Assembly: GCF_008365275.1 (NCBI RefSeq)
Contig: NZ_CP043504.1
Location: 744,001 to 808,000 of the forward strand
Reading direction: 5' to 3'
DNA length: 64,000 bases
From: Protaetiibacter larvae
GTDB taxonomy: Bacteria; Actinomycetota; Actinomycetes; Actinomycetales; Microbacteriaceae
Position numbers and translations under genes: made by a program. This document shows positions 11,301 to 60,002 of this stretch, one piece after another. Position 1 is the first letter of the stretch. Every line of letters begins with the position of its first letter. The notes below the pieces were generated by a model, which did no database searches, was not told where the DNA came from, and saw nothing but the letters and a program-made list of their open reading frames with translations.

Positions 11301-11513
11301 CTCGCCACCATCTTCGCGCTCGTGCCGATGGCGGTGGGGCTCACCGGGCACGGCGGCTTCATCTCGCAGCCGCTCGCGATCGTCGTGATCGGCGGTCTCA
11401 TCTCGTCGACCGTGCTGACGCTCATCGTGCTGCCGTCGCTCTACTCGCTCGTCGAGGGCGCGAAGGAGCGGCGCGAGATCCGTCGGGCCGCGAAGGCCGC
11501 GGTCGCCGCGTAG
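8373..11513 (+). CDS. RND superfamily efflux transporter (HAE1/SwrC-like)
   Basis: A protein of 1046 residues with the AcrB/HAE1 plan. TM1 near residues 10-30 is followed by a porter domain (FPSLTLPNVTIITTYPGASP), six TM segments near 330-530, a second porter half and the last six TMs near 860-1010. The proton-relay motif GRVVDDSIVVIENIKRH in TM4 is intact. It lacks a neighbouring membrane-fusion or outer-membrane gene, as in Gram-positive SwrC relatives that act alone. Glycine-rich inserts (ALFGGGGSTTFS; SSGSGGGGFSSD) replace part of the second porter loop. The start is GTG at 8373 with GGGAGAA upstream. Substrate is not predictable. Confidence 0.85.
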   Translation: MSLLSVFSLRNRALIALLTIVVALFGGYALTALKLELFPSLTLPNVTIITTYPGASPDVVENDVSTPIESAIQGIEGLDSSSATSSSGVSTVQASFVFGTDLTRAEQKVELAVGRIGSQLPDAVDPQVVTFSIGDFPVVQLGVTSDLDPADLASRLETVAVPALEQTDGVSSATTYGASGQRITITPDATELALHGLSTQAIRDALQANGALLAAGTIDDGDQTLTVQSGTKIVSTEELEQLPLLGGPTAPAAPGAPTPAAEPVTIGDVAEVAIVENPITGISRVNGEPSLTVAITKTPAGNTVEVSRAVNAQLDDLAAQLGGNTTFTVIFDQAPFIESSINSLATEGLLGLGFAVIVIFIFLLSIRSTLVAAISIPVSVLITFVAMLATGYSLNVLTLGALTIAIGRVVDDSIVVIENIKRHLGLGEDKKAAILAGVKEVAVAVTASTVTTVAVFLPIALVGDITGELFRPFALTVTIALAASLFVALTIVPVLAYWFLKVKPVHAHDAEAGDTAHPADELDRPSALQKAYLPIIRWTVGHPAVTIVAAALVLVGTLALVPFVPTNFVGGSGQNTLSISQTMPPGTSLAAKDAAAKRLEAALQDVDGLETVQVSVGSSGGSSLSALFGGGGSTTFSITTDESLDQDELRADVQDVIDGLDASEVGTVSVSSGSGGGGFSSDIAIEVKAPDEATLESATSDILDAMTQLDVTQQAESNLSEKQPYIAIQVDREKAAAAGLSEVAVGGIVAEAMLPAPLGSIEVDGNTLNIYIDNPKAPVTVQELEDFELPTRTGLVPLRELASVEQVDGPASISTQRGIRTATVSVTPSTADIGTASASVQSALADIELPDGVTATVGGVTADQQDAFSQLGLALLAAILIVYTVMVATFRSLRQPLLLLVSVPFAATGAILLQLASGIPLGVASIIGLLMLIGIVVTNAIVLVDLVNQYRDRGLGVVDAIVHGASRRLRPILMTALATIFALVPMAVGLTGHGGFISQPLAIVVIGGLISSTVLTLIVLPSLYSLVEGAKERREIRRAAKAAVAA

Positions 11514-11621
11514 TCGGTGGTCTCGAGACGCGTCCCGCTTCGCGGGCGCTCCTCGACCACCTCGGGTGTCCAGGTGGTCGAGGAGCGCCGCCGCAGGCGA
11601 CGCGTCTCGAGACCACCGACT
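11512..11621. repeat. 110-bp giant inverted repeat between the RND pump and the DEAD-box gene
   Basis: Outer arms of 23 bp (11512-11534 and 11599-11621) are perfect inverses containing GGTGGTCTCGAGACGCGTC. Inner arms of 17 bp, GCGCTCCTCGACCACCT (11546-11562) and its inverse (11572-11588), are also perfect. It starts inside the stop codon of the RND gene. The GGTCGAGGAGCGC and TCTCGAGACC blocks relate it to the TGATCGAG...TCGAGATC family. It may act as a strong factor-independent barrier to readthrough. Confidence 0.8.
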
Positions 11622-13904: not shown

Positions 13905-13960
13905 TCGCCCGGACTTCAGGTGATCGACGCACCCCGCACCCCGCACCCCGGTGCGTCCGT

Positions 13961-14046
13961 GCGAGAAATGCAGGAGATTCCGGCCGTCGAGCCGCCGCCG
14001 CCCCGTGGCGGCGGACCCCGGCCGCGGATTCTCCTGCATTTCTGGC
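13961..14046. repeat. AAATGCAGGAG palindromic element, copy 1
   Basis: AGAAATGCAGGAGA (13964-13977) and its perfect inverse TCTCCTGCATTTCT (14030-14043) enclose a second stem built from CCGCCGCC and GGCGGCGG. Copies with the same arm core lie at 30555-30644 and 59837-59925. It lies downstream of the helicase gene. Confidence 0.85.
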
Positions 14047-14383
14047 ATGAGGCAGGAGTGCGAGGGGTGCGGGTGAGCCGCGCTCGCGACGCAGCGGACC
14101 GCCTCAGCGGGAGAACGGATGCGGCCCGCGGGCGCCATCCCACTGGCGCCCACGGGCCGTCTTGCGGCCGTGCACCGCGGGGTTCTGGGGCTTAAAGAAG
14201 GTTCGGGGGGTCGCCGCCCCCCGACGGCGCCCCCCGCTCCGGATTCCCCCCAGATATCCGGTATTACCTTGAGAAGAAAGGTAACCACCGGGTAAGCATT
14301 CCGCGATCACCCCGAAGTGGGGGCACCCGTGCGGGGGTGGATGGGGGCCGACGGCTGTCGCAGGCGCCGGGTAGCGTGGGCGC
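14047..14383. other. Intergenic region with a possible micro-ORF and a small hairpin
   Basis: On the minus strand an open frame ends at 14104 and encodes, near its end, KPQNPAVHGRKTARGRQWDG followed by ARGPHPFSR. It reads like a real small basic protein, but no convincing ATG or ribosome binding site is present before about 14205. An AT-richer patch at 14240-14300 includes TTACCTT-GAGAAGA-AAGGTAA. Near the right end, TAGCGT (14372-14377) is the -10 box of recQ. Confidence 0.3.
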
Positions 14384-30400: not shown

Positions 30401-30445
30401 GGGGTTCTCCTGGGTGGGGCTCGATGTTGCAGCTAACTTTAGGCC

Positions 30446-31549
30446 ATGGTCGCCGACCCCCCTCGCCCCCGCCTGACGCCTGCGATGGCCGACATCCGTC
30501 GCGCCGTGCGCGAGTCGCTGGCCGGCCTCGCTCCCGCCGCCGCATCCCCCACAACTGCGAGAAATGCAGGAGTTCTGGCGGCGGATGCCCGTACCGGCGG
30601 GGATGCGGATGCGGCTGGGGGCGGATCTCCTGCATTTCTCGCAGGGCCGCTCGTGCTGGTGGCGCTCTCGGGGGGCGCGGACTCGCTCGCGCTCGCCGCG
30701 GCGGCCGCGTTCGAGGCGCCGCGTGCCGGGCTGCGGGCGGGTGCGGTGATCGTCGACCACGGGCTGCAGGCGGGGTCGGATGCAGTCGCCGCGCGGGCGG
30801 CGGATCAGGCGCGCGCGCTCGGGCTGGACCCGGTGCTCGTGCGCCGCGTGCAGGTGGGTGCGACGGGCGGTCCGGAGGCGGCCGCACGCGAGGCCCGCTA
30901 TGCGGCGCTCACCGCTGCAGCGACGGAGCTCGACGCGGCGGCGCTCCTGCTGGCCCACACCCTCGACGACCAGGCGGAGACCGTGCTGCTGGGGCTCGCC
31001 CGCGGCAGCGGCGGCGGCAGCCTGCAGGGCATGTCACCGGATGCGGGGCTGCTGAAGCGGCCGCTGCTCGGCATCCGCCGCGCCGCCACGCGGCAGGCCT
31101 GCGCCGACCAGGGCCTCGAGCCCTGGGACGATCCGCACAACCTCGACCCCTCCTACGCCCGGGTGCGGGTGCGCGAGCGGGTGCTGCCGGTGCTCGAAGC
31201 CGAGCTCGGCCCGGGGATCGCCGAGGCGCTCGCCCGCACCGCCGAGCAGTCGCGGGAAGACGGCGAGGCGTTCCAGCAGCAGATCGAGGAGTTCATCGAG
31301 GACGTCTGCGAGCCGGCCGAGGCGGGCATCGCGGTGTCGGTGGCGGCGCTCGCGGCCAACCCTTCGGCGCTGCGGCAGCGCGTCATCCGCTACGTGGTGG
31401 GCGCCGAGTTCGGGGTGTCCCTCAGCCGAGCGCAGACCCTCGAGGTGGCACGGCTCGTGACCGATTGGCACGGCCAGGACGCTATCCACCTGCCGGGTCT
31501 CACCGCCCGCCGCGAGGCCGGCCTGCTGGTGTTCGCCGCCGTCGAGTAG
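30446..31549 (+). CDS. tilS: tRNA(Ile)-lysidine synthetase with an in-frame palindromic insertion
   Basis: A 367-residue enzyme that converts cytidine-34 of tRNA-Ile(CAU) to lysidine. The ATP-pyrophosphatase loop [12 protein letters not shown] lies near residue 75, and [14 protein letters not shown] and [10 protein letters not shown] are typical. The residues coded by 30555-30644 (about 37-66, [20 protein letters not shown] and on) arise from a 90-bp inverted-repeat element occurring twice elsewhere in the window. Ninety bases equal 30 codons, so the frame is kept and the insertion sits in a variable N-terminal extension before the P-loop. The ATG is 6 nt after TAACTT. First gene of the ftsH-fol region. 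Confidence 0.93.
30555..30644. repeat. AAATGCAGGAG palindromic element, copy 2 (inside tilS)
   Basis: Perfect 18-bp arms CTGCGAGAAATGCAGGAG (30555-30572) and its inverse (30627-30644) enclose 54 bp of GC-rich sequence. The arm core is shared with 13964 and 59841. Total length is 90 bp. Confidence 0.9.
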
Positions 31550-32200: not shown

Positions 32201-32278
32201 CGTGGCGCGGCTGGAGCCGCGCCACGGGGGCGGGGGAAACGCCTCCCGCCACGAGGTCGCGGCTCCAGCCGCGCCACG
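32201..32278. repeat. 78-bp inverted repeat between hpt and ftsH
   Basis: Perfect 21-bp arms at 32201-32221 and 32258-32278, containing GCGCGGCTGGAGCCGCG, which is itself nearly self-complementary. It begins one base after the hpt stop codon, so it may form the hpt terminator while leaving the ftsH promoter (TAGCCT at 32331) free. Confidence 0.75.
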
Positions 32279-42798: not shown

Positions 42799-42929
42799 CA
42801 TCCCGAATCAAGGAGCCCAGCCTCCCAACTCAAGGAGTGCGTGTGGCTCGTGATGCGCGTGGGGCAGATGGGGCCGGATTCGCCCGTCGACTCCTTGAGT
42901 TGGGTTCCGCGACTCCTTGATTCGGGATG
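42799..42929. terminator. Double nested long-arm stem-loop between convergent genes
   Basis: Outer arms CATCCCGAATCAAGGAG (42799-42815) and inverse (42913-42929) are perfect over 17 bp. Inner arms CCCAACTCAAGGAGT (42824-42838) and inverse (42890-42904) are perfect over 15 bp. Both arms end in CAAGGAG, resembling those at 16350 and 30555. The element fills the gap between two converging genes. Confidence 0.7.
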
Positions 42930-45134: not shown

Positions 45135-45198
45135 CCCGCGAGATGTCAGAAGTTGCACGATTCGGGCCGGGAAACCGCAACAGCTGACATCTCGCGGG
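45135..45198. terminator. Bidirectional stem-loop between lipoprotein and XRE genes
   Basis: CCCGCGAGATGTCAG (45135-45149) and inverse CTGACATCTCGCGGG (45184-45198) are perfect over 15 bp. After a 2-base mismatch the stem continues with GTTGC/GCAAC. It starts just after one stop codon and ends two bases before the other gene's stop. Confidence 0.7.
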
Positions 45199-59812: not shown

Positions 59813-59836
59813 CCGGTCACCCTACGCCGCATCCTG

Positions 59837-59925
59837 TGCCAGAAATGCAGGAGACTCGGCTGCTCGGCGACGGCGAGCTGCGGATGGGCGGGGTCGCCTC
59901 ATCCGGTTCTCCTGCATTTCTGGCA
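59837..59925. repeat. AAATGCAGGAG palindromic element, copy 3
   Basis: Perfect 18-bp arms TGCCAGAAATGCAGGAGA (59837-59854) and inverse (59908-59925) around 53 bp. It lies just upstream of rlmC (start 59812) and downstream of the xylanase gene, so it could terminate the latter. Confidence 0.9.
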
Positions 59926-60002
59926 GAGGTGGAGGCTGGACGGACGCCGGGGTGGACGCAGAAGTGGGGCGCCGGCTCGCGCCGACGCCCCACCCCGCGA
60001 AC

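Follow-up and report, generated by a model that had tools for sequence, protein, structure and literature searches.

A dispersed palindromic repeat associated with a winged-helix DUF559 nuclease gene, with one copy in frame within tilS of Protaetiibacter larvae

Rickettsia palindromic elements are palindromes of about 100 bp that occur between genes and also in frame within coding genes, where the resulting peptide is tolerated. Proteins carrying a DUF559 domain are widespread, and their function is listed as unknown in Pfam. The Rickettsia elements belong to the CGTC-tagged repeats, for which no transposase is known (PMC3733652). In REPIN/RAYT systems, doublets of repetitive extragenic palindromic (REP) sequences, called REPINs, are served by a REP-associated tyrosine transposase (RAYT), and the REPINs of the GI type measure 71 bp start-to-start (PMC3116915). 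AbiEi is reported to bind inverted repeats in its own promoter (PMC7319586). Here we describe a palindrome located within the tilS gene of Protaetiibacter larvae, in a stretch of 64,000 nucleotides (NZ_CP043504.1, positions 744,001 to 808,000; hereafter the window), together with the dispersed repeat family to which it belongs and the winged-helix DUF559 nuclease gene that copies of this family flank. Our findings suggest a bacterial repeat system of a previously undescribed kind that is able to settle in frame inside essential genes.

The palindrome in tilS (window positions 30555-30644) is exactly 90 bp long and consists of perfectly complementary 18-bp arms around 54 bp. Mapping of the arms onto the open reading frame (ORF) bore out the original prediction of an in-frame palindrome without a stop codon: the element extends from the second base of codon 37 to the first base of codon 67, and the frame is kept. 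Matches to its arm with three or fewer mismatches occur six times in the window, versus 0.09 expected. The genome, a single contig of 2.56 Mb, contains 35 exact instances of the two-arm pattern, versus 0 for a reversed control, and 38 copies of this family (family A) are found if mismatches are allowed. The core can be written AGAAATGCAGGAG-N54-CTCCTGCATTTCT and is nearly always 80 bp in length (range 79-81 bp). Its arms are invariant and its interiors differ among all copies, with most interiors sharing the motif CCCG-N6-CGGG at the same off-centre position. The possibility that the interiors are captured foreign spacers was rejected, as none matches any other place in this genome beyond the arms. 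The list of exact arms in this genome includes no solitary arms, save those of copies with a mismatched partner and two nested pairs. These nested pairs (G000:C1:710310-710462 and 1232892-1233023, where G000 denotes the P. larvae genome) were also considered to prove that the inserted unit is fixed, an argument that was dropped when the two cases gave inconsistent lengths.

Family-A copies are mostly intergenic and are found in every gene orientation, with 10 of the 38 residing between convergent genes. Among the congeners (G001-G008, grouped as Homoserinibacter within the Microbacteriaceae), the number of copies ranges from 0 to 43. Further Microbacteriaceae genera share the core, at spacings of 77-80 bp and with outer extensions that are particular to each genus. 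Two copies are insertions of approximately 91-105 bp relative to empty sites, namely the copy in tilS and an intergenic copy at position 1398329 of the P. larvae genome, where 129 bp correspond to a 38-bp empty site in G004. No target-site duplication was recognised at the empty sites, which are too diverged.

A strong hairpin is predicted for the palindrome, and one explanation is that it works as RNA by serving as a terminator, an attenuator or an mRNA stabiliser. The 111-nt stretch containing the palindrome does fold better than expected (z = -5.1 with DNA parameters and -2.8 with RNA parameters). However, the first 255 nt of the tilS mRNA exhibit an ordinary fold that is no better than that of shuffled sequences (z = 0.36), because the whole region is GC-rich. 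Moreover, family-A copies have no Rfam match and occur in all gene orientations. No covariation beyond the consensus links the two arms of a copy, either within the arms or at the positions beside them, and each arm therefore resembles a single DNA recognition site rather than half of a selected RNA stem. We therefore regard a role as RNA as very improbable.

In four genera, pairs of family-A copies situated about 1 kb apart bracket one homologous gene. The product of this partner gene (G000:C1:1307248-1308105 in P. larvae) joins an AbiEi_4-like winged helix to a DUF559 domain, the latter scoring above the Pfam cut-off. The DUF559 residues ExD..H..DR.RD are present, with E227, D229, H234, D243, R246 and D247 invariant, and the C-terminal 80 residues are similar in sequence to PDB entries 3hrl (a DUF559 protein) and 3r3p (the Vsr-like homing endonuclease I-Bth0305I). 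In most genomes rich in elements, profile searches returned a single top-scoring partner gene. Family-A copies are present on both sides of the gene in all ten top-clade loci where such copies could be identified, and carry the same arm dialect as the other copies of the respective genome, while an eleventh locus (G052) has family-A arms with a longer spacer. Weaker paralogues of the partner lack family-A arms, and were at first taken as negatives; this impression was dropped since many of them carry palindromes with arms of their own, including TCCCAAATCAAGGAGT, TTGTGCAGGA, ATCATTCAGGA, CAACTCAGGAGA, GATGCAGGCTGAA and others. No AbiEii toxin gene was seen between the flanking elements.

Under a strict test that calls for shared arms on both sides of the gene, 16 of 29 winged helix-turn-helix (wHTH)-DUF559 loci score positive, versus 0/28 tilS and 0/25 tlyA loci. 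A fresh sample gave 5 positives among 18 wHTH-DUF559 loci versus 4 among 672 random windows, a conservative comparison in that the random windows were taken from element-enriched loci. Furthermore, the arm types follow the protein tree: 11 changes are needed, which is the minimum for 12 types, whereas 500 shuffles of the labels needed at least 13 (mean 16.3). The clade formed by the G004 and G005 proteins, for example, matches a dialect of its own, TGTCGAAAATGCAGGA. Homoserinibacter genomes without the partner gene hold 0 (G007), 1 (G002) and 14 (G001) copies, versus 23-43 in carriers, except G003 with 4. Sampling of partner genes was drawn mainly from genomes carrying elements; a phylum-wide sample contained few strong homologues outside the Microbacteriaceae. 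No partner gene was found on viruses, and relatives on plasmids are distant. In one genome (G151:C3:46937-47789), a partner-like gene is split across two reading frames and adjoined by one element, and three exact copies are left in that genome.

We consider it probable that family A is a REPIN/RAYT-like repeat that is propagated or maintained in trans by the winged-helix/Vsr-like nuclease. AbiEi proteins recognise inverted repeats, and for this reason we infer that the winged helix of the partner would bind the two invariant inverted arms, with a need for approximately 54-55 bp between them. The nuclease domain would then nick or cut at the bound arms, and repair could copy or insert the palindrome elsewhere. 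By this route the palindrome would be mobilised, and its arms would stay uniform within a genome, with the interior being free to change its sequence while keeping its length. The tilS copy may have landed in frame in a flexible region that separates the N-terminal helix from the strand of the P-loop. Its length, a multiple of three, and its lack of a stop codon would allow translation into a disordered linker that TilS tolerates.

The main rival explanation is that the arms are an operator, through which the winged helix regulates its own gene, and that the dispersed copies are a selected regulon or chromosome-organising sites that do not move. The promoter binding of AbiEi cited above fits this idea, as does the behaviour of the arms as independent DNA-site instances, and arms have arisen around native sequence in tlyA and in a yeiH-like gene (see below). 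However, an operator is not expected where there is no promoter, as is the case for the copies between convergent genes, and copies occur in all gene arrangements. The insertions at tilS and at one intergenic site, the swing in copy number among congeners and the presence of elements on the 3ʹ side of the partner gene also count against a set of immobile sites, and thus we judge this explanation unlikely.

Alternatively, family A might be an ordinary miniature inverted-repeat transposable element (MITE), whose terminal inverted repeats serve an unrelated transposase, and the nuclease gene might be just a favoured neighbour or a hitchhiker. Its terminal inverted repeats, small size and mostly intergenic locations are indeed features of such elements. 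However, the RAYT-type Y1 transposase (PF01797) was found in 0 of 22 genomes by searches whose controls were positive, a result that also led us to reject mobilisation by a RAYT. The interiors are unrelated between copies except for local duplicates, which is unlike usual MITEs, no target-site duplication was recognised at the diverged empty sites, and several arm families are each accompanied by a separate paralogue of the partner protein. An ordinary MITE is accordingly a quite improbable account.

Copies inside genes allow the history of single sites to be followed. The tilS copy is present at the same place in P. larvae and in four of the eight congeners (G001, G004, G005 and G006), and the site is empty in three others (G002, G003 and G007). 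Occupied sites measure 134-136 bp and empty ones 29-37 bp, so that occupied sites are approximately 99-105 bp longer, and the orthologue alignment reveals the tilS palindrome in no other genus. The palindrome is thus an insertion that is read as coding sequence, as had been proposed, and not a segment with homologous residues in all relatives. Nor does TilS start downstream of it: the N-terminal helix that precedes the palindrome is conserved across genera, and therefore the palindrome is translated. By contrast, the expectation that the insertion is recent did not survive the comparison, in that a homologous copy occupies this position in five species. Both G002 and G003 nest among carriers of the tilS copy in the tree, and so the insertion is best read as old and the empty sites of these two species as losses; their tlyA arms also look decayed. 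At the same spot in tilS, the remaining congener, G008, has a palindrome of another family with arms GTCGCAGAAGCAGGCT (C3:371820-371875). This palindrome resembles the repeats beside a P. larvae gene (L318), and its arms are of the GCAGGCT..AGCCTGC type.

The copy in tilS was also thought to have been domesticated, with the peptide performing a function in TilS. In favour of this proposal, the residues NAGDSA..SPAF are kept in several species. However, these residues are encoded by the DNA arms, which alone are constant, and the peptide between them diverges. The AlphaFold model of TilS has pLDDT (predicted local distance difference test) values below 50 only at residues 32-63, which correspond to the palindrome and reside between a helix (residues 12-25) and a strand (69-73). 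The peptide thus looks like a disordered linker that TilS tolerates, and the proteins of G002, G003 and G007 lack it entirely. Domestication is, in our estimation, the least probable of the explanations considered. Separately, a TAACGTTA-like motif is located directly before the tilS ATG (window positions 30430-30446) and before its orthologues in several genera, and this recurrence supports a start upstream of the palindrome and suggests that the tilS transcript may be leaderless.

Other genes exhibit two types of occupancy. The chromosome segregation gene smc carries an 81-bp copy in frame (G000:C1:2453545-2453625). In tlyA (L032), paired arms at 55-bp spacing surround native coding sequence, and an alignment with the arm-less tlyA of G007 is gapless with no change in length; therefore, the tlyA arms arose by substitution. 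A yeiH-like gene (L104/L325) likewise has arms at 55-bp spacing around a native interior.

Several observations weigh against propagation of the repeat by the nuclease. Judging from their sequences, the tlyA and yeiH-like copies do not come from simple insertion. There is no direct evidence of movement, as neither a strain-level insertion nor a clear target-site duplication was found. The agreement between copy number and gene is loose: G001 lacks the gene yet holds 14 copies, and in G003, which has it, only 4 exact copies are present. The strict test detected no shared palindromes at 13 of the 29 loci in the initial sample, nor at 13 of the 18 fresh loci. Finally, the hypothesis was formed on the loci of the first count, and only the 18-locus sample is independent. 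A broader proposal, which we advance tentatively and with somewhat less than even confidence, accommodates both types of occupancy. Here, winged-helix/Vsr-like nucleases rather than transposases would write and spread a class of repeats, with each subfamily using its own arm ‘word’ (many including CAGGA). Such nucleases might create arms around resident coding sequence at 55-bp spacing, as in tlyA and the yeiH-like gene, as well as insert whole palindromes, as in tilS. Several families would operate in parallel, and one could replace another at a single site, as in tilS of G008.

Additional palindromes are present in the same genome (Table 1). The second family, GCAGGCT..AGCCTGC, is also dispersed, with seven copies that are all 58 bp in length. 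The palindrome with CCCAACTCAAGGAGT arms in the window is flanked by further nested arms, gaatcaaggag and ctccttgattc. A perfect 15-bp inverted repeat, CCCGCGAGATGTCAG, surrounds 34 bp at 45135-45198 and possibly represents another palindrome family. At 11512-11621, a 23-bp inverted repeat, AGTCGGTGGTCTCGAGACGCGTC, encloses another hairpin, GGTGGTCGAGGAGCGCC, and a 21-bp inverted repeat that is perhaps a terminator lies at 32201-32278, immediately after the hpt stop codon and ahead of ftsH.

Table 1. Features of the tilS palindrome and related elements in the window (a dot marks features given without a strand).
Feature	Position	Strand	Basis
tilS coding sequence, 367 aa, encloses the palindrome	30446..31549	+	ORF list; orthologues in 39/40 relatives; alignment
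Codons 12-25, conserved N-terminal TilS helix upstream of the palindrome	30479..30520	+	Alignment, AlphaFold model
Palindromic element, 90 bp, family A	30555..30644	.	Window arm search and genome-wide family
Left arm CTGCGAGAAATGCAGGAG; invariant core AGAAATGCAGGAG at 30560-30572	30555..30572	+	Arm searches
Interior, 54 bp; length fixed, sequence unlike other copies	30573..30626	.	Copy comparison
CCCG-N6-CGGG motif, off-centre, same place in most copies	30588..30601	.	Oriented profile
Right arm CTCCTGCATTTCTCGCAG, the same 18-mer on the minus strand	30627..30644	-	Arm search
SGGADS P-loop, codons 75-80, downstream of the palindrome	30668..30685	+	ORF list, alignment
Second family-A copy, intergenic	13959..14048	.	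Arm search
Third family-A copy, intergenic, interior one base longer	59836..59926	.	Arm search
Palindrome CCCAACTCAAGGAGT-N51; resembles the TCCCAAATCAAGGAGT arms flanking the second wHTH-DUF559 gene of this genome (L282)	42824..42904	.	Palindrome search

A limited search of the open-access literature, with subscription journals and preprints outside its scope, returned no paper tying DUF559 to palindromic or inverted repeats. If our preferred explanation is correct, then a subclass of DUF559 proteins together with its cognate dispersed palindromes acquires a testable function. The uniformity of arms despite drift of the interiors, the in-frame entry into essential genes and the genome-wide rewriting of short sites by a homing-type nuclease likewise become testable.

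Compared with the known systems, the partner protein shares with AbiE type IV toxin-antitoxin systems an N-terminal winged helix of the AbiEi_4 type, but its C-terminus is a nuclease domain in place of the antitoxin domain. This nuclease domain is what links it by sequence to I-Bth0305I and 3hrl, although the partner is not located in an intron, is fused to a winged helix and is associated with palindromic repeats. Similar to Rickettsia palindromic elements, family-A copies can lie in frame in coding sequence, as an insertion in tilS and also in smc. However, the bacteria are unrelated (another phylum), the arms are presumably unrelated too, and most copies are intergenic. The overall arrangement is that of REPIN/RAYT systems, with which family A shares two short invariant inverted sequences at a fixed distance (67 bp here versus 71 bp) around a variable spacer, mostly extragenic locations, one copy-flanked partner gene per family and sequence types that are specific to host lineages. 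The differences are that a winged-helix DUF559 nuclease takes the place of the RAYT, which is absent, and that the AGAAATGCAGGAG arms have neither a GTAG tag nor an internal stem, with no compensatory changes in the spacer. If propagation by the nuclease is confirmed, the problem that REPIN/RAYT systems solve would have a second solution, one that relies on an unrelated enzyme.
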